Assembly (NCBI RefSeq): GCF_003151255.1
Contig: NZ_CP029481.1
Coordinates: 2,170,001 to 2,234,000, forward strand
Direction: 5' to 3'
DNA: 64,000 bases
DNA from: Microvirga sp. 17 mud 1-3
GTDB lineage: Bacteria > Pseudomonadota > Alphaproteobacteria > Rhizobiales > Beijerinckiaceae
Notes under the pieces: generated by a model
Seen by the model: the letters and a program-made list of their open reading frames with translations, nothing else
Database searches by the model: none
Told to the model about the DNA's origin: nothing
Program-made: the position numbers and the translations under genes
Shown here: piece by piece, positions 206 to 11,295 of the stretch
Numbering within the stretch: position 1 is the stretch's first letter
Layout: each line of letters opens with the position of its first letter

Positions 206-2164
206 TCAACGAAGAAGGGCGTTGAGCCGATCGAACAGGGCCTGGAAGCGATCGAGGGATCGCTCGACCGCCTCGTCCTTCTTCTCAAGAAGGGCAGGAT
301 TGCGGATCAGCCAAGCCGACGGCGTGAAATGGCTGAACTCGGGCAAGGACGGACGCAACCTGAAATGCTCCTCGGTAGGGGCAAGGATCCGGACGGGTGC
401 TCCCTCGGGAGTCAGGGCCTTCGCTTTGAGCGCATCGGCACCTTTCAGCCCGTAGGTCCCGTTTACGATGTCGGCCCAGACGGGTTCCTCGAAGAAATCT
501 TCGATATCGGATTCGGGCTTTGATACGAACTCAGCGACCGTCATCACGTTGCTTGCCGCTAGAAGGCTGGAGTTGCGAAGCCGGTCGATGTTCTTCTTCG
601 TCCCTTGAGCCACGTCGGTGAGGACTGCCACGTGGAGGTGCTTGCCTGCAAACAGGGACACGAAGGGCCAAACCTTATCGACCCCGCCGGACGGGCAAAT
701 CGTCCAGCGGTCGCTCAGCCCGGCATTCCCCCTCTTCTTCAGCGCCTCCGAAGCCGCCTGCAAGTAGAGGATGTCCGAAGGCCCCTCGACCAGCAGGGTG
801 TCCTTGCCAACGAAGAGAGTCTGCGTGATCTCGTACCCGAGGGCGGCTTGCAGCGGAAAAACCGCATCCGCATCGGAGCTCAGGAACTGCTCTGACACTT
901 TGGTGCCAAGCACCTTGGGACGGAAGGTGCCAACGCCTTCGACCTTATCCTCCACGATCCGCACGGACTCGAGCTTGTCGGCCGGAACCATGAACGGCGA
1001 ATGGGTGCTGTAGATGACCTGATGGTTCGGGCGCAGCTTCTCATCGATAAACCGGAGCAAGTCGGCTTGGGCCTTGCCGTGGAGCCCGTGGCCCGGCTCG
1101 TCGAGCAGGATAATGACGTTACCGTGCTTCTTCTTGACCTGCGCAAAGGCGACCAGGAAGGAGAAGAACCAGACAAAGCCCGCTGACCGCTCATTGAACG
1201 GAACCGTGACCTTGTGCAGATCATTGTAGACGCGAGCACGGACAATCGTGCCGCTGTTGAAGGGGGCAGGATCTTCCGGACGCGCCTGATCGACCGCAAC
1301 CCGGATCGCCAGATACTGGTTCTGGGACCAGTAGTCGAAGACCCGGTCTGTGATCTTGTTGGAGGCCGACTCCAGGCGGGCGGTCAGCTCCTCATACTTC
1401 TTTGCTTCCTGTAGTTCCTTGAGGGATGTGCCCGCATACTCCAGGAACTGCTCGAAGAGGAGTTCGCCCTCGGACAGCGGTTCGGCCGGATTGCGCCCCG
1501 CCCGCTTGGCGTTCAGAGCATCGATCGCAACGTCGCCGGCCATCCTCGAATAGTTGGCGAAGTACAGGAACTCAGGGCATCTTTCTGCCAGGACGTCGAT
1601 AGCTGCAAGAAGCGGTCTATGGTCACGAAAGGCCTTAATCCGGCGCAGGACGTCATCTTGAGCCGGTGTTCTTTCGGTCAGCCCATCCAAGTAGGCGAGA
1701 AGATCGCTCACCCGGGAATATGGATGCTCAGTGGCTCCTCCGCCGGCCGCTTGCCAAAGGTTTTCTGCGACCTTGGCTTCGTCCAAAGGCACCGTCCAAT
1801 TTTTACTAGTCTGTTCGTAGGATTTCTCAGTCGTCACCTCTTTGGACTTAAGGCACCCGGGCCCGAGAAGCGCCTCAACTGCGGCGACATCGTTATCATC
1901 AAGCAGCCATTTCGCAACGATGACTGTGGCCTCGCCGTCAGAGTGCCGCTCGTCGTACTCCGACCAGTGCCGACGGGGATAATCCTGCAGTTTGTTGTAG
2001 ACTTTCCGCTCGGTGTCGACTGGGTTCAGGCGCTCGATCGCTTGTAGAACAGTCGTCTTGCCGGACTCGTTCTTGCCGACCAAGCATGTGACGTCACCAA
2101 TCGCAAATTCGCCTGTGTCCTCGATGCTGCGGAAATTCGTGACCTGAACCTTGGTCAATTTCAT
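206..2164 (-). CDS. OLD-family ATP-dependent endonuclease (AAA ATPase + Toprim-like)
   Basis: The 652-aa protein opens with an SMC/RecF-like ATPase core: KVQVTNFRSIED, then Walker A GKNESGKT near residue 32. A Walker B/D-loop region LLDEPGHGLHG follows near residue 350, then a switch-type STHSPF. The C-terminal third resembles a Toprim nuclease, with LLVEGPSD near residue 455. The expected DxD is LTDVA, so its second acidic residue appears to be missing. The ATG at 2164 is preferred over an upstream in-frame start because AGGGGGC precedes it at good spacing. OLD-family proteins act in phage exclusion and DNA processing. No GajB-like helicase lies beside it, so a two-gene Gabija system is not supported. 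A lone defence or maintenance gene next to a Tn7-like element is the inference. Confidence 0.8.
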   Translation of the reverse strand: MKLTKVQVTNFRSIEDTGEFAIGDVTCLVGKNESGKTTVLQAIERLNPVDTERKVYNKLQDYPRRHWSEYDERHSDGEATVIVAKWLLDDNDVAAVEALLGPGCLKSKEVTTEKSYEQTSKNWTVPLDEAKVAENLWQAAGGGATEHPYSRVSDLLAYLDGLTERTPAQDDVLRRIKAFRDHRPLLAAIDVLAERCPEFLYFANYSRMAGDVAIDALNAKRAGRNPAEPLSEGELLFEQFLEYAGTSLKELQEAKKYEELTARLESASNKITDRVFDYWSQNQYLAIRVAVDQARPEDPAPFNSGTIVRARVYNDLHKVTVPFNERSAGFVWFFSFLVAFAQVKKKHGNVIILLDEPGHGLHGKAQADLLRFIDEKLRPNHQVIYSTHSPFMVPADKLESVRIVEDKVEGVGTFRPKVLGTKVSEQFLSSDADAVFPLQAALGYEITQTLFVGKDTLLVEGPSDILYLQAASEALKKRGNAGLSDRWTICPSGGVDKVWPFVSLFAGKHLHVAVLTDVAQGTKKNIDRLRNSSLLAASNVMTVAEFVSKPESDIEDFFEEPVWADIVNGTYGLKGADALKAKALTPEGAPVRILAPTEEHFRLRPSLPEFSHFTPSAWLIRNPALLEKKDEAVERSLDRFQALFDRLNALLR

Positions 2165-2570
2165 GGGCGCCCCCTGTTCTGGTTTTGATCTGGCTGTCAT
2201 TTGATCTCACAGATAGGAATTTTAAACAGCGCGGCTGCTTCTTGAACAAGGATTTGAGGCTCAAAAGCTAGGAAAGTGGAATAATCCTTGGGTCGACACG
2301 AGCAGGCAGCTCGTGCTCTCGGTGATCCCGATTTCAACGGCTTGATCGATTTCTGACGCCATCACCCGACTACCCCTTTTGGGAGTCGCAGAATCCGAAA
2401 CTTGGCTGTTGACTCGGTTCCTATTTTGTTCTCTCCTTAAGCCATGAACACGACGCGGCACAAACGAGAACGGATGGACGGCCTGGAACGGCCGGCGGTG
2501 GGTCGCGCCCGCAAACGGACCCGCTTCATCCAACCTTAAGTCACGGCGCACTCGGCCTGAGGCGCCCTGT
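2165..2570. other. Intergenic region, no confident gene
   Basis: This separates the leftward OLD-family gene from the rightward TnsA-fold gene, so it should hold two divergent promoters. Only tiny reading frames occur (31 codons at 2443 on plus; 33 codons at 2362-2261 on minus), neither with a convincing ribosome site. No clear palindrome or -10/-35 pair was recognised. Confidence 0.4.
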
Positions 2571-3206
2571 ATGAGTGGTGCCATGGTCCTGCTTTCGAGT
2601 ACCGTTACCGGACAACAATCCCCCCGCCGACGCCTTCCCTTCAAGCTGACCAAGGCCCCCGGTCCCCTTGATGCGAAGACGGCCCTGCACGTCGACTTCC
2701 TGATGGTCTGCGAGTTCGATCCGCGGGTGGTCGCGGTGGCCGAGGCGGACAGCTCGATCGCTCTGTGGGACAGCCTGCAACACACGCCGGATTACCGGGT
2801 CGATACGGATGAGGGCCGATCTCTCGTCGACATCGTCATCTCGACTTACCCGCCAACCCTGGAGCATTTGGCCCACGTCGAGCGAGCGGCGGCGGAGCAG
2901 GGGATTGCGTACCGCGTCGAGACCGCCAGCACCCTTCGATCCGGCCTGCCCTTCTTGGCTGCCCGCCTGATCCATGACTGCCGCCGCCGGCTCGTCCCGG
3001 CCGGCGACCGGGTCCGCATCCTGCATGTCCTCGACGAAGTCGGCTCTCTGCCGCTGGTCGAGGCGGCGGGCCTCGCAACGGCCTCCGTGGATGGCGTGGC
3101 CGCCGTGCTCGCTCTGGTCTGCGAAGGCCTGATCGAAGTCGAGATTGCCAACGGCATCGTCCCTGAAGCTCCCGTGCGCCGGCGAAAGCGCACCTGCCCG
3201 GAATGA
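2571..3206 (+). CDS. TnsA-fold (Tn7 endonuclease-like) protein, catalytic residues apparently lost
   Basis: The 211-aa protein has the layout of a TnsA N-terminal nuclease: LHVDFLMVCEFDPRVVAV, then HTPDYRV, then SLVDIV, followed by GIAYRVETA and a C-terminal winged-helix-like part. In active TnsA proteins these stretches read LExDFL, TPDF and VEVK. Here the first Glu is His, and the Lys and one acidic position of VEVK are replaced; only the PDY Asp remains. It is therefore probably a non-cleaving relative. ATG 2571 and ATG 2583 are both possible starts with weak ribosome sites. It lies 110 bp before the FtsH-like gene on the same strand and 2.7 kb upstream of an intact tnsA. The family call rests on motif pattern alone. 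Confidence 0.55.
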   Translation: MSGAMVLLSSTVTGQQSPRRRLPFKLTKAPGPLDAKTALHVDFLMVCEFDPRVVAVAEADSSIALWDSLQHTPDYRVDTDEGRSLVDIVISTYPPTLEHLAHVERAAAEQGIAYRVETASTLRSGLPFLAARLIHDCRRRLVPAGDRVRILHVLDEVGSLPLVEAAGLATASVDGVAAVLALVCEGLIEVEIANGIVPEAPVRRRKRTCPE

Positions 3207-3315
3207 CACTCCCCCATGGAATGCCACGAACCCACCCTGCCCTGTTTCCCGCCCACGAAGCGACGCCGTTGAGATAACCGGCGTGGATCGCTCGCGGGCT
3301 GCCGCGAGACGATCC

Positions 3316-5334
3316 ATGACCGACAATGCCCCTGCCGATATTTCCGATATTCCCTTCGATGATGCTCCGGATGACCCGTCATCATCCGCACTGCGTGCCG
3401 ATCTCGTCACGGTTGAGCTCTGCCTCGACGCCGTGTTGCCGGATGGGCTGATCGACGCCCTTGCCCGCCGCAAGCCCGCCGCGGTGGCGATCACGGTGCC
3501 TTCGGAATCCTGGTGTGATCCGGTTCAGGATCGCATCACCGCGTTGGTGTCGGCGGCTCGCTTCGAGATCGCGGGCTCACCCGTCCGACCTCGCGACATT
3601 GAGCCTGCCTTTATCGTTCGCCGAGCCAGCCCGACGTCCAAGCTCCGTCGAGAGGATCAGGCACGAGCCGCAGAGGCGCTCTCGAGGAGCCATGGTCTGG
3701 TCGGCATCAGTGTCGGGTCTGCCAGCGCCCTGCCGGAGATCCTCGCCCATACCCCCGACTACCAGGTTGTCGTGGCCCGTCCCACGGAGCAGTTGCTGCA
3801 ACAGGTCATCGCATGCGTGACCGGTCAGCAGCCGGATCCCGGCTCTTTGGCGGGATTGGGCGGCTTCGATCTTGACGATCTGGCCACCTGTATCCGTCGG
3901 GGTTCCTCACCCGCCGACTGCATCCTGCGCCTCAGAGAGATCCGGCGGGCCCGTTCAGCTGCCCCAGGCGATGATGTGCCTCCGCTCGATCGGATGCACG
4001 GCTACGGTGCGGCCCAGGATTGGGGGCTGGCGCTCGCCCGCGACATCGACCGGCTCCGGTCCGGTCACCCTGACATCACGCTCGCGAGCCTGCCACGGGG
4101 CATTCTGCTCTCCGGGCCACCGGGGGTCGGCAAGAGCATCTATTGCCGAAGCCTTGCCAAGACCGCGGGCGTGCCTCTCGTGATCACGAGCGTCGGCGAG
4201 TGGCTGTCCTCGGGCGACGGCCATCTCGACGACGTCCTCAACGCGGCCCGTGCCAGCGCCGCTGCGCTCAAGGAGCGACCCGGCATCCTGATGTGGGACG
4301 AGGTCGACAGCATCGTCGACCGACGGATTGGCGACAGGAACAGCAGGGCGTGGTGGACGAGCTTCGTGAACGGAGTTCTCACCCTTGTCGACTGCCTGCC
4401 GGCCGGCACGATCCTGATCGGCGCCTGCAATCACCCCGAGATCGTGGATCCCGCGCTCAAGCGTTCGGGGCGGCTGGATACGGCCGTCACCATTTCACTT
4501 CCCGACGCTGCAAGCCGGGAGGGCATCCTGCGGGCTCATCTCCGCGGTGACCTGGCCGACGCCGATCTCACAAGGATTGTGCACGCAATTCATGGCCAGA
4601 CGGGTGCCGACATCGCCCGCTACGTCCGCGATGCCCGGCAACAGGCACGGGACAAGGGCGGTCCGCTGACTCTTGCCGATCTGGAGTTCGTGATCCTTCC
4701 GCCCGAGACCCGTTCGCCGGATGTGCTGGCCCGCTGTGCCATTCACGAGGCAGCCCACGCCGTCGTCGCCACCGCCCTTGGTCTCGAGGTCGAGGCCGTC
4801 ACTCTGCACGCAATGGGATCAACCGGCGGATCAACATCTGTCGTCGCCAGCCGGGATCCGATCCCCACACGGGCGACATTGGAGCTGGAGGTCATCGGTG
4901 CCCTTGCGGGCCGGGCAGCGGATCTGGCCGGATCTGGCGCCAATGCGGGGGCTGGTGGCTGCTGGTCGTCAGATCTCGGTTTCGCAACGCAGATACTCGC
5001 CAAGATTCACGGGTCCCTGGGCCTTGGTCCGTCTCTTGTCTTCCGCGGCTCGCCGGATGAGGTGGCGCAGGCTCTCGCTCACGATGCCGACCTGCGGGAC
5101 GTCGTTGAGGCCGACCTGGTGCGTCTGCTCAATCGGGCGATGACCTTGGTCGAACACCACGCCAACGCGATCGCCGCTGTCGCCGACGCCCTGATCCAGG
5201 AGCGCCTGCTCACCGGCGATGACGTGCTCGCGCTCATGGCGGCCCATCCGCCTTGGAAGCGGGCCCGCCGTGCACGACCCGCAATGGACTTTGGCAAGGC
5301 GCGAAATCGGGCCGCGAAACTCCGGGAGATCTGA
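3316..5334 (+). CDS. Soluble FtsH-like AAA+ ATPase with M41-type metalloprotease domain
   Basis: The 672-aa protein has an unrecognised N-terminal domain of about 210 residues. An AAA+ module follows, with Walker A GPPGVGKS near residue 266, Walker B ILMWDEVD near 322 and arginine-finger region RSGRLD. The C-terminal domain has HEAAH near residue 477 (HEXXH zinc site) and SSDLGFAT, matching the FtsH third-ligand Asp motif. Both ATPase and peptidase therefore look intact. Unlike true FtsH there are no N-terminal membrane segments. ATG 3316 is chosen because earlier starts overlap the upstream gene; its ribosome site is weak. The TnsA-fold gene precedes it by 110 bp, suggesting one unit. The substrate is unknown. 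Confidence 0.8.
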   Translation: MTDNAPADISDIPFDDAPDDPSSSALRADLVTVELCLDAVLPDGLIDALARRKPAAVAITVPSESWCDPVQDRITALVSAARFEIAGSPVRPRDIEPAFIVRRASPTSKLRREDQARAAEALSRSHGLVGISVGSASALPEILAHTPDYQVVVARPTEQLLQQVIACVTGQQPDPGSLAGLGGFDLDDLATCIRRGSSPADCILRLREIRRARSAAPGDDVPPLDRMHGYGAAQDWGLALARDIDRLRSGHPDITLASLPRGILLSGPPGVGKSIYCRSLAKTAGVPLVITSVGEWLSSGDGHLDDVLNAARASAAALKERPGILMWDEVDSIVDRRIGDRNSRAWWTSFVNGVLTLVDCLPAGTILIGACNHPEIVDPALKRSGRLDTAVTISLPDAASREGILRAHLRGDLADADLTRIVHAIHGQTGADIARYVRDARQQARDKGGPLTLADLEFVILPPETRSPDVLARCAIHEAAHAVVATALGLEVEAVTLHAMGSTGGSTSVVASRDPIPTRATLELEVIGALAGRAADLAGSGANAGAGGCWSSDLGFATQILAKIHGSLGLGPSLVFRGSPDEVAQALAHDADLRDVVEADLVRLLNRAMTLVEHHANAIAAVADALIQERLLTGDDVLALMAAHPPWKRARRARPAMDFGKARNRAAKLREI

Positions 5335-5944
5335 AATGGCAAACCAATCCTTTGGACGGCCACAAATATTTTCAGCCTGCCCAATGCTGATGTGCCGCTC
5401 AAAACATGGCGCTCATGATGTTCTTGCCGTTGGCGTTTCTGCGCTCGTTCCTAGTCGCATAACACCAAAAAATAGGAAACGTCACAAGACAGCGCGGCAA
5501 CGATCTCGGCTTGTTGTCAGTTGGATTGGCAGCCGAATCCTCCGACCCGAATCTCTGCATTCTTGGGGCCGCGAAGGATTTCCGAACAAGGAGATGGCTG
5601 TGACCGCAGGGCTTATTCGAGCGCCGCCGAGACCTTAGACAAACGAAACGCGCGGACCTGGCCGGGACCGCGCGCTCGAAGAGATCCGTGCCACTGCCCC
5701 GAAATTTTCCAAACCCGGCAGGGCACTTCCAGAACCAACCAAAGGACCGGCTCCGTGGAGGGGGCCAGCGTCTGTTGGACCGGGCGACTATTGCCGCCTG
5801 CGATACCAACATCGCAGGTCGCATCTGGTTCCCTTGGAACCGGACCCCGTCTCTTCGTGCCCCCTCCACCGGCCATCCCCTGTAAACGCGCAAGTCCGCT
5901 TGTGCGAACGATATTGCATGCCCTTGTGGGCGGGACTGAAAGCC
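5335..5944. other. Long intergenic region upstream of tnsA; candidate transposon end
   Basis: No gene is supported here. In Tn7-like elements an end lies outside tnsA, so the left end of this element may be in this stretch. I could not find a convincing TGT-type terminus with repeated TnsB sites or a partner end elsewhere. A hairpin-forming repeat lies at 5797-5818. Confidence 0.35.
5797..5818. repeat. Inverted repeat upstream of tnsA
   Basis: CCTGCGAT and ATCGCAGG are perfect 8-bp arms around ACCAAC. It sits about 130 bp before the tnsA start and could be a TnsB-binding or operator site, or a leader hairpin. Confidence 0.45.
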
Positions 5945-6679
5945 ATGAAGCGGGTGATCGACCTGGACAAACTGAACGCGACCTGCATCCCGCGGGAGCT
6001 GGCGCCGGACGTCACCCAGTGGGTGCATCCGGACGGCCGCCCAGTCCGCGACGTCATGAAACCCAATGCCCTGAACCGCACCGTGCGGGCGCCCTGCGTC
6101 AAGGCAGGCCGGGATCTGCATGTCGAGGGTCCGGACAACGAAGCCTTGGCCGTGATGTGGTACGACATCAACCCGAGCGTGCTCGATGTCATCGAGCAGC
6201 CGGAGGTGATCGAGTTCAAGCGTGAGGACGGACGCGAGACGTTCTTTGTTCCCGACTTCCTCGTCCGCCGCGTCGGCGATCTCTATCGCCGGGAGGAGGT
6301 CAAGAGCGCCCTCGCCTTCGTCAAGGATCCTGACCTTCAAGCGAAGCTGGACCGGAACAAGGCCATCTATGCCCGCGGCGGCCTGGAGTACCGGCTGCTG
6401 GTCGTGAACCGCATCGACCACCGATCCTTCTGGGACAACGTCCGGATCGTCGCGTCGAAGCGTGGCTATACGCCCGACGAGGGCGATGTCGAGCGCGTTC
6501 GCCTTCACCTTGCGGCCAAGGGCGGCGTCTCGACGCTCGGCGCCTGCATCAAGCACGTGAAGCACGACCCGGTCGATCCGTTCGACACCGTGCTGGCGAT
6601 GATGCCCCGCCGCCTGGTTCGCATTCAGTTGAAAGAACCCTTGGGCCTGCACAGCCGTGTGGAGCTCGTCCTGTCATGA
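5945..6679 (+). CDS. tnsA: TnsA-like transposon endonuclease
   Basis: TnsA cuts the 5' ends of Tn7-like elements and works with TnsB. This 244-aa protein keeps the nuclease pattern: NEALAVMWYDINPSVLDVIEQP supplies the first Glu, FVPDFLV the Asp, and EEVKS the E-x-K triad, all in the N-terminal half. A C-terminal winged-helix part (DEGDVERVRLHLA) follows. ATG 5945 begins the conserved part; ATG 5918 is an alternative, and neither has a strong ribosome site. It heads a rightward tnsA-tnsB-tnsC-tniQ cluster and sits 167 bp before tnsB. It contrasts with the degenerate TnsA-fold gene at 2571. Confidence 0.8.
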   Translation: MKRVIDLDKLNATCIPRELAPDVTQWVHPDGRPVRDVMKPNALNRTVRAPCVKAGRDLHVEGPDNEALAVMWYDINPSVLDVIEQPEVIEFKREDGRETFFVPDFLVRRVGDLYRREEVKSALAFVKDPDLQAKLDRNKAIYARGGLEYRLLVVNRIDHRSFWDNVRIVASKRGYTPDEGDVERVRLHLAAKGGVSTLGACIKHVKHDPVDPFDTVLAMMPRRLVRIQLKEPLGLHSRVELVLS

Positions 6680-6793
6680 CCGCGTACGCCCGGCCCTGTT
6701 CAGCCCGCGGCCCGCCGTGAGCGCTGCCTGATCCGCCCACCGGCCGCTTCCATCCCAACCCGCCGCAGATCGATCCCGATCTGTGAACGGCCT

Positions 6794-6808
6794 CGCTTTG
6801 CCAAAGCG
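6794..6808. promoter_or_regulatory. 15-bp palindrome before tnsB
   Basis: CGCTTTG-C-CAAAGCG is a perfect palindrome 39 bp upstream of the tnsB start codon. Its place suggests an operator or TnsB autoregulatory site controlling tnsBC-tniQ. Confidence 0.45.
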
Positions 6809-6846
6809 GTCTTCCCTTCCCGTCCGAAGGTCCAAGGAGACCGGAC

Positions 6847-9075
6847 ATGAATCTCAATGCATCCACCAACCTGACACCGATCGGCGCCGCCGTTGCTCTG
6901 GGGCGCAAGAACCGACCCACCAAGACTATCGCCCAGCACAAGATCCGCAAGCGGATCACCTTGAGCGCCGGCGTCGATCTCGAGGCGGGCCAGCTCGTCC
7001 GCCTCGACGGCAGTCACTTCATCTTCGAGCACGCAACCACCGATGACGAGATCGTGCTGAAGCACGAGCGAACCGGCAAGGTTTTTCCGCTGTCGCTCGA
7101 CGAGTTCTCCGGGCTGCATGCGGACAACCGGCTGTTCGTCCTGGCCCGCTGCGAGGTGACGCTGCCGAAGAACAAGGTGGCGCTCCTGACGATGCCGCTC
7201 AGTGCCTTCGAGCCGAAGACCCGCGCCGAGGCCATGCGAAAGGCCCGGTTCTGTATCGAGCTCGACAAGGCCCGTGACAGCGGCGAGGTGAAGTCGCTCG
7301 TTTTCGAGGAGTTGGAGCCGTTCATCAAGAAGGTCGCCGAGGAGCGTGGCCTCAAGACAACATCTGTCGCATCGCTGATCCGGTGGTACGGCTGGTGGCG
7401 GGCCGGCCACCGGCGGCTCTCCGTCATGTGTCATGCCCGTGCCAAGCGGCGGGCGACTGCCCGCATGAACGAGGCCGTTCTGGCTCACCTCCTCGATGCC
7501 ATCGAGGGCCTCTACGCCCAGGTCTCCGGAACCACCCTGGAGGACATTCGGCAGGCGGTTCGCAAGGCGCTCGAGACGGAGGATGAGCAGGATGGCCCGG
7601 ATCGACTGGAGCTGAAGCCCCCGGCCCTGTCGACGATCGCCCGCTACGTGAAGAACTACAACGAGTACCAGATCACGGCCGGTCGCGAGGGCACCTACGA
7701 GGCAAACGCGATCTTCGAGGCTCGCGGCAAGATGCAGATCCCGACCGTGCCGAATGCGCTGTGGGAGATCGACCACACCCGCATTCCGATTGAGGTGTGC
7801 TTCAAGGGGCGAGACCGCAACGGGAATGAGGTCGAGATCATCATCGGCCATCCCTGGTTCACTGCGGTGATCGACATCCACACGCGGGTCATCGTGGCGT
7901 GGGAGTTGTCGATGGAGCCGGCCTCGTCGCTGCGGACCATGCGGGTGCTCAAGAAGGCGATGTTGCCCAAGCACGAGTTGCACCAAACCTATCCGGAGCT
8001 CGAGAACCGCTGCGACTTCTTCGGGATCACCGCCCGGGTACGGGCCGACCGTGGCCGTGATTTCTTCGCCGATGCCGTAGCCGAGGCGTTGATGGACCTC
8101 GTGGTCGAGCTCGACCAGACCCATGCCTACACCCCAACCGAGAAGCCCTTCATCGAGCGGTTCTTCTGGTCCCTGAAGCGGATGCTCCTGCGCAAGATCC
8201 CGGGCTATGTGCCCAAGGCCGCCAAGCGTAAGCCGGGGCGGAAGAAGAAGGTCGCCAAGCATCTGACCATCGAGCAGCTCGACTGGGCGATCACGCGCTG
8301 GATCGTCGACGTGTACCACCAGCGGCCGCATGCGGGCCTTGGGGGTATTTCGCCGGCCGAGGCCTGGGAGCGCGGGATGGAGCGGGTCGCCCTGATGCGG
8401 AAGAAGAACCCACAGCTGCAGGTCCGCTCGAGCTTCGAGCGCAGCCAGGAGGAGTTCGACCTGGCCTTCACCATCCGCCGCACCCGCCGGCTCCGTAACG
8501 ACGGCGTCCGGATCTTCGGCTTCCAGTACCACTCCCGGGAGTTGGCTCAACTGGTGTCGGCCATCGGTGTAGACGCGCTGGTTGAGGTGCGGGCTGATCC
8601 GGCGAACATCTCCAGCGTCCGTGTGTTCGACCCGCGACCGGACCACATGCGCTTCATCACGGCGGACTGCACCGAGGTCGAGTATACCGCGAACCTGCCC
8701 CTGTGGTCGCACAATCAGCTCAAGGGTCCCCTCGCAAAGCGGCTCGGCCGCAAGCCTCGCAAGGGCGACTGGGGTCGCGCCTCGATCACGCTGGTGAGCG
8801 AAATTCTGGGACTCCTGGATGCCGGCCCGAAGGCCAGCCGGCGCGATTTGGCTAAAGCCGCCCGACACCTCGGCGGCAGGCTCGATCTCGGGCTGTTGGC
8901 GGCCAAGCTCTCCTACGAGGCCGACAAGACGGGCCAACCCATGCTCGAGGTCGCCTACGACGACCTCGAGGCCGACGATCAGGCCGAGGCCGTCACGCCC
9001 GCCACGCCGGTGAAGGCCGCCCCGACGGCTCCGCAGGGCCGCTCGCGGGACCCCTTCACCGAACTCGACCGCTGA
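6847..9075 (+). CDS. tnsB: TnsB-like DDE transposase (Mu/Tn7 family)
   Basis: The 742-aa protein has the rve/Mu-type core: WEIDHTRIPIEV (Asp near 309), ADRGRDFF (Asp near 401, where most relatives read DNGxEF) and EKPFIERFFWSLKR (Glu near 437). The DDE triad therefore looks complete. A Mu-type beta-barrel C-terminal region (HPGLGG-like RPHAGLGGISPAEAW) and an N-terminal helix-turn-helix region flank it. TnsB binds the element ends and joins 3' ends to target DNA. AAGGAG lies at good spacing before ATG 6847. A terminator-like hairpin follows it before tnsC. Confidence 0.9.
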   Translation: MNLNASTNLTPIGAAVALGRKNRPTKTIAQHKIRKRITLSAGVDLEAGQLVRLDGSHFIFEHATTDDEIVLKHERTGKVFPLSLDEFSGLHADNRLFVLARCEVTLPKNKVALLTMPLSAFEPKTRAEAMRKARFCIELDKARDSGEVKSLVFEELEPFIKKVAEERGLKTTSVASLIRWYGWWRAGHRRLSVMCHARAKRRATARMNEAVLAHLLDAIEGLYAQVSGTTLEDIRQAVRKALETEDEQDGPDRLELKPPALSTIARYVKNYNEYQITAGREGTYEANAIFEARGKMQIPTVPNALWEIDHTRIPIEVCFKGRDRNGNEVEIIIGHPWFTAVIDIHTRVIVAWELSMEPASSLRTMRVLKKAMLPKHELHQTYPELENRCDFFGITARVRADRGRDFFADAVAEALMDLVVELDQTHAYTPTEKPFIERFFWSLKRMLLRKIPGYVPKAAKRKPGRKKKVAKHLTIEQLDWAITRWIVDVYHQRPHAGLGGISPAEAWERGMERVALMRKKNPQLQVRSSFERSQEEFDLAFTIRRTRRLRNDGVRIFGFQYHSRELAQLVSAIGVDALVEVRADPANISSVRVFDPRPDHMRFITADCTEVEYTANLPLWSHNQLKGPLAKRLGRKPRKGDWGRASITLVSEILGLLDAGPKASRRDLAKAARHLGGRLDLGLLAAKLSYEADKTGQPMLEVAYDDLEADDQAEAVTPATPVKAAPTAPQGRSRDPFTELDR

Positions 9076-9090
9076 TCCTTGCCCTCCTCC

Positions 9091-9117
9091 CCACCGGGAC
9101 GCCATGCGCCCCGGTGG
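9091..9117 (+). terminator. Hairpin plus ATTTT between tnsB and tnsC
   Basis: CCACCGGG and CCCGGTGG form a perfect 8-bp stem, extendable through ACGC/GCGC, followed by ATTTTG. It looks like a weak intrinsic terminator or attenuator that would lower tnsC/tniQ expression relative to tnsB. Confidence 0.5.
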
Positions 9118-9139
9118 ATTTTGCCATTGGGAGACCATC

Positions 9140-10336
9140 GTGACCGAGCCTGTTCCAAGCCCATTCGCCGATCTCGCCGCCGGCGCCTTTGGTCGCCGTA
9201 ACCAAGCAAAGCCGTCCCGCCAAACCGCCCCCACAACCAGTGGCGGCGGGACAACTCCACGAGCTCCAACCGTGCGCTCTACCTTCCAGCCACCCTTGCT
9301 GTCTTTCACGGCACCAAAGCTCGTCTGGGATGAAGAGGAGCGTGACCACTCATACCGCGAGCTTTCGGTTGATGAGCGTCTGGATCGTGCCGACAAGATC
9401 TTCGTCTTCGATGATCAGGCCTACAACGCCGTCATGACCCTAGACAGCTTTCGCAAGGACTGCCGGACGAGCGGCAATCTGGTGGTGATGGCGGGCCCGA
9501 GCGGGACCGGAAAGAAGAAGCTGACTGAGCGCTATGCCGCTCGGTTCGAGGTCAAGCGAACACCTCGCTATGACACGCTGACGGTCGCCCGCGCGGATCT
9601 CTTCGGCCAAACCGATGGACGGAACCTTCTGTTCGCCATTCTCAAAAGTCTCGAGCACCCGGCGTTCGTGAAGTCGTCCAATCCGTACGAGGCATTGCGC
9701 CTGATCGGCGAATGGGTGAAGGCCCGTCAGACCGAAATGATCGTGGTTCTTGCCGCCGAACAGCTGTGCCCGAACGGCCGCATGCCCGATGAAGTGGTCA
9801 ATCTCATCGGCAGGATCCTCCAGCGCCGTCTAATCGGGACCTTGGTTCTGGTTGGAGACCCCGTCTTGCTCACGGCAGTCGACGCCACCCGGAAGCTCGA
9901 TACTCACATCCGAGCCCGCTTGCCTCTGACGGATCTCGCCTTTGAGGACGAAGCTGAGGCCAAGGTTCTTCGGGAGCGCGGGCTCCCGCTCCAACGCGAC
10001 GCAGCCGTGGAGTTTCTGACTGCCGTGGCCTGGGACTTGCCGTTCGATCCTAACGGTCTCAACTCCGAGATGATGGCGGAGCGATTCCATGTCGCCGACG
10101 GCGGCAACCGCGGGATCAGGATGAATCTGATCTACGGTGCGGCTCAAGTGGCCCTGAAAGCTAATCCGAAGACGATGGTCTTTGGCTCGGAGCACTTGGC
10201 CGTCGCCTTCGCCCGACTCTGGCCGGACCGGGTCAACCCCTTCTTGACCGTGTTGCCGCCCCGCAAGGGCGTGCCGGTCGAGATCCTCGAGGGCTTGTTG
10301 AAGAAGGCCCAAGATCTGGCGGCACTGAACCGATGA
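9140..10336 (+). CDS. tnsC: TnsC-like AAA ATPase with altered Walker motifs
   Basis: The protein has 398 aa. TnsC proteins form ATP-dependent filaments linking target selector to transposase. The fold is recognisable from NLVVMAGPSGTGKKKL, IVVLAAEQL and GTLVLVGDP. However, Walker A ends GKKK rather than GK-S/T, and Walker B reads LAAE rather than LDE, so ATP and magnesium handling may be impaired or unusual. GTG 9140 is chosen because GGGAG sits six bases before it; an ATG at 9104 lies inside a hairpin. The stop overlaps the tniQ start (ATGA), indicating coupling. Confidence 0.8.
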   Translation: MTEPVPSPFADLAAGAFGRRNQAKPSRQTAPTTSGGGTTPRAPTVRSTFQPPLLSFTAPKLVWDEEERDHSYRELSVDERLDRADKIFVFDDQAYNAVMTLDSFRKDCRTSGNLVVMAGPSGTGKKKLTERYAARFEVKRTPRYDTLTVARADLFGQTDGRNLLFAILKSLEHPAFVKSSNPYEALRLIGEWVKARQTEMIVVLAAEQLCPNGRMPDEVVNLIGRILQRRLIGTLVLVGDPVLLTAVDATRKLDTHIRARLPLTDLAFEDEAEAKVLRERGLPLQRDAAVEFLTAVAWDLPFDPNGLNSEMMAERFHVADGGNRGIRMNLIYGAAQVALKANPKTMVFGSEHLAVAFARLWPDRVNPFLTVLPPRKGVPVEILEGLLKKAQDLAALNR

Positions 10337-11295
10337 CTACGCCCCGTACATCGTGGCACGACTTGCCGGTCTCGCCGTGGCGGGCGCCCTTGCAGCCTGG
10401 CGAGACGCTGCCCAGCGTGGCCGTTCGGTTCGGGTCCATCTTCGGCGATGGTCGGGCCTTCGTTCCCCAACTGCTCGACATGCCCGGAGACCATCTGGCC
10501 GCCATCGCGGTGCGGGAGGAGGCCGCCCGTGCCTTCGCCCGTGTGAACGGGATCCCCGACGGGGCGTTGCAGACCGTCTTGATGCGCCCTGTCCCCGGCG
10601 AGCCCCTGGGGCGGGTGCATTATCATGGCCTGATTCTCGACCGGGATCAGGTTGAGACGGCCGCCATGCGGATTGCACCCAACCGGCTGGCGCAGGATCT
10701 CGCCGCGGGCCATGAGCCCTGGCAGCGGTATCTGTGGTCGATCCGATGCCTCCCCGCTGATTCGGAGACGGGTGAGGTCCTGCACGACCGCTGCCCGGAG
10801 TGCGGATGTCCCTTCTGGTGGCGCGACATCCATGAGATCACGCGCTGCCCCAATCTGTCCTGCGGCCTGCGGCTGGCGAGCATTCCCGCTCGCCGGCTCA
10901 GAGGGGCCAACCTGCTGAGCTTGCAGTCCCTGGCTAATCTGTTCCGGCCTCAGCGGGATGCCGGGGTCTGGAAGCGACTGCCAGAAGCCGTTTCGGAGTG
11001 GCCGGTCGCTGACGTCCTTGATCTGATCGACTGGTTAGCCCGTCTGGAAGGCCGTGTGCGAGGCTGGTCCGACGCTGGCCTTGGCCTGCGGGAGCGCTCA
11101 AAAGGCCTTGCCCTGCTGGAAGAGTGGCCGGTCTCAATCGAGCATCATCTTGAGCGATACTGGCGCGTTCGCGGCTCGAAGGGCCGCTTGGGCCGTGTTC
11201 TCGTGGCGGGCGAACTGGAGACGATCCTGCAAAACCTTCGCTCGGAGCGAGCCCGTGAATTCGTCGGGCCCGTTCTGCGTCGGGTGCGCCGGTGA
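10333..11295 (+). CDS. tniQ: TniQ/TnsD-family target-selection protein
   Basis: The 320-aa protein opens with the TniQ signature (RAPLQPGETLPSVAVR) and carries a zinc finger of CPEC and CPNLSC pairs near residues 155-180. Its C-terminal half is short compared with TnsD, more like TniQ of Tn5053/Tn6022-type or CRISPR-linked elements. No Cas genes or CRISPR array were seen nearby, so an RNA-guided element is not supported. The start overlaps the tnsC stop by four bases. TniQ normally dictates where the element inserts; its attachment site is unknown. Confidence 0.8.
   Translation: MTTPRTSWHDLPVSPWRAPLQPGETLPSVAVRFGSIFGDGRAFVPQLLDMPGDHLAAIAVREEAARAFARVNGIPDGALQTVLMRPVPGEPLGRVHYHGLILDRDQVETAAMRIAPNRLAQDLAAGHEPWQRYLWSIRCLPADSETGEVLHDRCPECGCPFWWRDIHEITRCPNLSCGLRLASIPARRLRGANLLSLQSLANLFRPQRDAGVWKRLPEAVSEWPVADVLDLIDWLARLEGRVRGWSDAGLGLRERSKGLALLEEWPVSIEHHLERYWRVRGSKGRLGRVLVAGELETILQNLRSERAREFVGPVLRRVRR

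Follow-up and report, generated by a model that had tools for sequence, protein, structure and literature searches.

A TnsA-fold protein without its catalytic Glu and Lys and a soluble FtsH-like protease recur beside TnsA-bearing Tn7-like transposons

The C-terminal domain of Tn7 TnsA contacts TnsC and DNA, and ClpX acts on the Mu transposition complex. A Tn7-like transposon is defined by TnsB and TnsC together with TnsA, TniQ or both; TnsA nicks outside the 5' ends, and the C-terminus of TnsC can interact with Tn7 TnsA through a tail that is missing in many Tn7-like elements (excerpts of PMC11406308). How a Tn7-type complex is disassembled once integration is complete, and how elements keep their own activity in check, are open questions in the field. 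In the excerpted text of PMC12326709, added ClpX aids one CAST in human cells, where it boosted integration by wild-type PseCAST 4-fold on average at three sites; propagation of a TnsB selection phage fell about 200-fold in a clpX-deleted E. coli host, and the hypothesis reported has the post-transposition complex taken apart by ClpX. ClpX was not among the factors recovered in E. coli by a CAST host-factor screen, as described in the available part of PMC12757027.

Here we describe an AAA+ protease gene, and a partner with the fold of TnsA, that lie next to such an element. The window (the whole 64,000-nucleotide stretch analysed, bases 2170001-2234000 in a single-contig genome of 4.40 Mb) contains the following genes:

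206..2200, minus strand: OLD-type AAA_15/TOPRIM gene (Pfam AAA_15 7.2e-26; OLD-like_TOPRIM 1.6e-4, just under the cut-off)
2571..3206, plus strand: pseudo-TnsA (dTnsA), 211 aa, an open reading frame with the two-domain TnsA fold (degenerate TnsA nuclease, residues ~32-124; C-terminal winged-helix-like domain, ~143-208)
3316..5334, plus strand: soluble AAA+/M41 protease, 672 aa, Pfam AAA and Peptidase_M41 (predicted degenerate AAA+, ~29-213; active AAA+, ~217-461; M41, ~470-645)
5834..6679, plus strand: tnsA, catalytic Glu, Asp and Lys kept (PF08722 above cut-off; residue alignment)
6847..9075, plus strand: tnsB transposase (Mu-transpos_C and rve by Pfam; PADLOC TnsB)
9104..10336, plus strand: tnsC ATPase, TniB/AAA (Pfam TniB 5.6e-6; family HMM)
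10333..11295, plus strand: tniQ/tnsD-type target selector (PADLOC TniQ 0.0016; 2e-56 to a family HMM built from its own family)

TnsB and TnsC stand here with both TnsA and TniQ, which makes the element Tn7-like. The OLD-type gene is a divergent neighbour of the pair, and we do not count it in the module; it has a relative at just one other locus (L135) among the 129 scanned. G+C content dips to 0.57 in the gap before tnsA (5335-5833) and to 0.55 in the gap before the pair (2201-2570), against 0.64-0.67 in the surrounding genes, and neither a gene nor a repeat was recognised in the two gaps. The same genome holds a second Tn7-like element, from which the protease is absent (L216, C1:245000-264900); its genes for TniQ, a degenerate TnsA-like protein, TnsA, TnsB, TnsC and TniQ all run in one direction.

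Does the pair lie inside the element? Its place there is putative, since the transposon ends were not found. Nothing convincing appeared among the longest inverted-repeat pairs listed across the window (a run without a control), in a scan for TGT/ACA termini with a 5-bp duplication that covered the window and the adjoining 20 kb on the left (best 11 of 16 bases, no shuffled control), or among short repeats between protease and tnsA at 21 loci, judged by eye with no control. When this gap and the roughly 1 kb preceding dTnsA were compared in four related loci, no pair of motifs beat its 10 shuffles. The motif TTTCCTATTTTTTG, at 2262, 2417 and 5466, was rejected, as 6 of 100 shuffles also reach three matches.

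The 211-aa protein has the fold of TnsA without the catalytic Glu and Lys. All four motifs of the TnsA nuclease layout given in the preliminary description (LHVDFL, EFDP, HTPDYRV and SLVDIV) are present, and the predicted structure matches the TnsA fold: comparison with the PDB gave four matches at E <= 0.001, every one a TnsA, and 176-185 residues align with the Tn7 TnsA structures 1f1z, 1t0f and 9bw1. Fold comparison alone found this relationship. Searching solved structures by sequence missed TnsA, neither Pfam nor PADLOC gave a match, and the NCBIfam model TnsA_like_Actin scored 7.5e-6, under its cut-off. Aligned with the TnsAs of similar loci, and in Tn7 TnsA numbering, the protein has His for Glu63, keeps Asp114, and has Asp for Gln/Glu130 and Val for Lys132. 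The loss of the first Glu and of the E-x-K Lys, claimed earlier, is thus borne out; of the features of an active TnsA endonuclease the protein has the two-domain fold and lacks the Glu/Asp/Lys set. Among the 31 additional TnsA-like proteins (one from L216 and 30 from near the protease, a few rows being gapped at catalytic positions) none keeps the complete set, compared with 17 of 24 TnsAs beside TnsB.

The protease gene follows on the same strand. Its likely start is the ATG at 3316, giving 672 aa and an intergenic gap of 109 bp, rather than the TTG at 3145 in the program-made list of reading frames; a relative (P0097, 82% identical) opens likewise with MTDNAPAD. A relative of the 211-aa protein (P0001) is also 82% identical. 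Contigs of 7,384, 756,585 and 22,358 bases turn up among the relatives of both genes, so in these three cases the two probably share a contig. Pfam recognises AAA (3.2e-20) and Peptidase_M41 (4.4e-8); the NCBIfam FtsH model matches at 3.5e-34, yet its 118.5 bits fall short of the 600 required. Across 39 aligned sequences the key ATPase residues and those of HExxH and the distal Asp are invariant. The protein has the AAA+ and M41 features of FtsH and lacks the N-terminal membrane anchor: no membrane helix was found, the highest 19-residue hydropathy being 1.76, within the AAA core. In a structure model (pLDDT 87.1) the best Foldseek matches are FtsH-type, the N-terminus is modelled as a degenerate second AAA+ domain, and residues 29-461 match the tandem-AAA proteins NVL/Rix7. 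The preliminary description's anchorless protease with intact HEAAH and SSDLGFAT motifs, close to an intact tnsA, is confirmed.

Does this arrangement recur? With a threshold of E <= 1e-40, protease relatives were found in 79 of 397 genomes from the family and in 48 of 397 from the order, and one genome may have as many as three; the order count marks the gene as accessory. In the order draw, PF08722 found 34 TnsA places, of which 7 were set aside as frames over 900 aa. (The order draws for TnsA and protease are of equal size and, by their listed handles, the same.) Of the 27 plausible TnsA genes that remained, one of them the window's, 11 have a protease relative within 10 kb, or 10 of 25 if this genome is left out, where about 0.1 would be expected by chance on our own estimate; 8 are on the same strand and 3 divergent, and one of the 11 (G712) is a contig-end fragment added from a family HMM search.

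A second count started from the transposase. In 67 protease-bearing genomes PF09299 (TnsB-type) found 48 places. At 18 of these a listed protease lies no more than 12 kb away; the two genes share a strand in 17 cases, 15 of them at 2.9-3.8 kb and the other two at 5.3 and 9.3 kb, and are on opposite strands in one. Family HMMs, which were iterated on the same loci later counted, added L233 and L254, with broken or truncated protease genes, for 20 of 48. TnsA is present at all 20. The other 28 comprise 13 elements with TnsA, 13 without detectable TnsA (two of them on contig ends or short contigs) and two fragments of elements already counted. The protease is therefore found at 20 of 33 TnsA-bearing elements and at none of the 13 places where TnsA was not detected (Fisher p 1.4e-4, with classes assigned by hand and elements that are not independent). 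Two loci scored TnsA-less by the automatic rule, L223 and L239, show TnsA in other searches and count as TnsA-bearing; TnsB genes split into two frames (L176, L178, L183, L247 and L254) count as they stand. A pattern-based contig scan for the protease mostly returned ordinary FtsH, and 10 of its 80 loci were used.

Because the TnsA and dTnsA models cross-match, the two classes were assigned by position. A second TnsA-like gene is present at 14 of the 20 protease-bearing places (partial in L243) and at 3 of the 13 TnsA-bearing elements without protease, L216 among them; it is absent from 10 of 26 loci with a protease and a TnsA directly beside TnsB, two of these being contig edges. Gene order varies while adjacency is kept: dTnsA-protease-TnsA in the window, protease-dTnsA-TnsA in L244 and a divergent protease in L209 and L237. 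In four protease-bearing elements without a second TnsA-like gene, the TnsA beside TnsB is itself altered in the alignment, with Arg for Lys in L149, L158 and L181 and all three catalytic residues absent in L180. In the Methylopila-type elements (L175-L178) an SRAP-like gene or piece adjoins the pseudo-TnsA; in L175 some 6.7 kb of other DNA seems to interrupt it.

The histories of protease and transposase disagree. On a tree of 54 TnsBs the protease-linked members are scattered, with 13 changes against 18.0 when labels are shuffled (8 of 500 shuffles as low), and a single protease-bearing clade is unsupported; on a tree of 91 proteases the tns-linked members are scattered too (16 changes against 25.4). 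L043, the same locus as L246, was left out of the TnsB tree and the second-TnsA count and retained in the TnsA residue alignments. Protease and TnsB distances are uncorrelated, both in the full set of 30 loci (rho -0.06, a value reached by 1660 of 2000 permutations) and in the 25 less similar ones (rho -0.13; 1946 of 2000), so strict coevolution of protease and transposase is unsupported. At the DNA level, the pair is about 72% identical between L248 and L249, whose tns genes show no match, and tns is 69% identical between L249 and L251, the latter without the protease. The conflicting histories point to exchange of modules: adjacency is kept and partners change. Pairs recur at a fixed place by many different Tn7-like elements and may give them built-in protease control.

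What might such a pair do? We tentatively favour, with a little less than even confidence, the reading that the pseudo-TnsA adaptor and the AAA+ protease form an accessory module of the cut-and-paste, TnsA-bearing Tn7-like transposons of the window's order (Hyphomicrobiales), acting on the transposition complex. The pseudo-TnsA would have lost DNA cleavage, while it keeps the TnsA fold and above all the C-terminal winged-helix-like domain; it would dock on the TnsA/B/C-DNA complex, where TnsA docks, as an adaptor or decoy subunit. If the two genes are co-expressed and their products interact, the docked protein would bring in the FtsH-like tandem-AAA protease, which would unfold or degrade transposase subunits. 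Either the post-integration complex would be cleared, leaving the gaps repairable, or transposase levels would be held down. The effects of ClpX on PseCAST and the TnsB phage are a precedent for the module reading, which also draws on the fold and catalytic state, the recurrence beside TnsA and TnsB, and the tie to TnsA-bearing elements. The failure to recover ClpX in the CAST screen and the missing TnsA-binding tail of many TnsCs count against it, as do the uncorrelated distances, the scattered labels on both trees, the loci without a second TnsA-like gene and the many protease loci without tns. If it is true, an element-borne adaptor and protease would open dismantling to direct tests and might provide a dedicated factor.

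We regard as rather doubtful the bolder version in which the dead TnsA paralogue is the substrate adaptor of a dedicated double-AAA M41 protease, a class of Tn7-like transposons clears its own transpososome with it in place of host ClpX, and related proteases partnered by GIY-YIG-like proteins do the same for other recombinases. No paper in the open-access library searched brings Tn7-like elements, TnsA and FtsH together; two surveys of Tn7-like elements gave nothing relevant on protease or peptidase, and one of them nothing relevant on FtsH. Among the best-ranked titles we found no prior description of the recurrent module of degenerate nuclease fold and soluble double-AAA M41 protease.

The preliminary description had left the choice between a transposition regulator and a defence pair. 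A regulator fits the fixed position and the tie to TnsA-bearing elements. Defence is a serious rival, because tns genes are missing from most of the protease loci, although we rate it below the module reading: a sensor or effector with a nuclease fold (pseudo-TnsA, GIY-YIG-like or restriction-nuclease-like) and the AAA+ protease would act against phages or foreign DNA and travel with whatever recombinase is near. Among 81 protease loci (the window and L135-L214, the 80 picked mainly by score and so non-random), tns genes are present at 22, or 21 without L186, which has a weak TnsB match, and absent at 59. The 59 include all 29 loci with a GIY-YIG-like neighbour, all 17 with a tyrosine recombinase and the 7 with a restriction-nuclease-like neighbour, a label assigned by eye; the GIY-YIG label draws on a PF01541 match in 2 of 18 members (3.3e-4 at best), on the conservation of Y, G and R, and on public annotation in Bosea. 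A TnsA-like match lies upstream at 35 loci, 11 of the 22 with tns genes and 24 of the 59 others (several of the latter only partial), and is thus not tns-specific. None of four named plasmid protease loci has tns genes listed. At one plasmid locus (L262, Methylorubrum extorquens CM4, pCMU01) the protease relative stands between two phosphoesterase genes, beside a 3'-5' exonuclease gene and downstream of two TIR-domain genes. The OLD-type gene adjoining the window pair also suits defence, as does the match of the protease's AAA part, and that part only, to the PADLOC IetA models (8.6e-23), which may reflect merely a common AAA family.

On the other side, offset and strand are fixed next to tnsA and the pair is not among variable cargo; it was not seen at the 13 places without TnsA; a degenerate second TnsA occurs also without the protease; and PADLOC has no model that covers dTnsA and protease together. 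Among the relatives of the 211-aa protein, seven are close (59-96% identity), and then comes a group at about 37-48%, mostly a near-core gene of the genus standing without the protease. Of 48 same-genus genomes 42 have this solitary relative, among them the present one (C1:3555187-3555735, in L023). At 19 of 20 of its loci (L004-L023) it adjoins genes for a calcineurin-type phosphoesterase and an AAA_23 ATPase, a Mre11/Rad50-like pair, and at none of the 20 is there a protease, within 1.5 kb each side at 16 and within 19 kb at four; it is perhaps a domesticated TnsA. The interpretation in the preliminary description is supported in part. Pairs recur beside tnsABC and at other loci; the protease is also common away from tns, and the more distant homologues mostly do without it.

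Could the pair instead be aimed at competitors? A dominant-negative pseudo-TnsA and degradation by the protease would then disable the transposase of competing Tn7-like elements. The swapping of pairs between unlike transposases with adjacency kept (L248/L249; L249/L251) and a partner that shares the fold of the targeted machine are in keeping with this; two TnsABC elements nonetheless coexist in this genome, and we consider self-exclusion improbable. In Tn7 itself glmS is followed by the right end and then tnsA. That the protease gene is likewise a mere landing place, downstream of which Tn7-like elements insert, is about as improbable, in spite of the similar protease-gap-tnsA layout and the very unlike TnsBs found there. 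In L244 dTnsA lies between protease and tnsA, L209 and L237 have the protease reversed, no end-like motif is common to the gaps of four related loci, and the gene is accessory (48 of 397 genomes).

The module reading can be set beside the systems that it most resembles. With Tn7-like transposons (TnsABC-TniQ) the locus shares the tnsA-tnsB-tnsC-tniQ order; it differs in the pair upstream of tnsA. dTnsA shares with Tn7 TnsA the two-domain fold and the active-site Asp, but its catalytic Glu and Lys are replaced, identity is 13-15%, and it is an extra gene beside an intact tnsA. The protease has the AAA+ plus M41 core of FtsH, m-AAA and i-AAA proteases with zinc and ATP motifs intact; unlike them it has no membrane anchor and carries a predicted degenerate AAA+ domain in front, and it falls far under the cut-off of the FtsH equivalog. 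Its AAA domain resembles IetA of the IetAS defence system, but an M41 domain and a pseudo-TnsA take the place of the IetS serine protease, and a Pfam scan of seven genes of the window (206-11295) revealed no serine protease. The closest functional parallel would be ClpX on Mu and CAST complexes, likewise an AAA+ unfoldase thought to dismantle a transposition complex; ClpX is a host factor, whereas here the protease and its putative adaptor sit beside the element.
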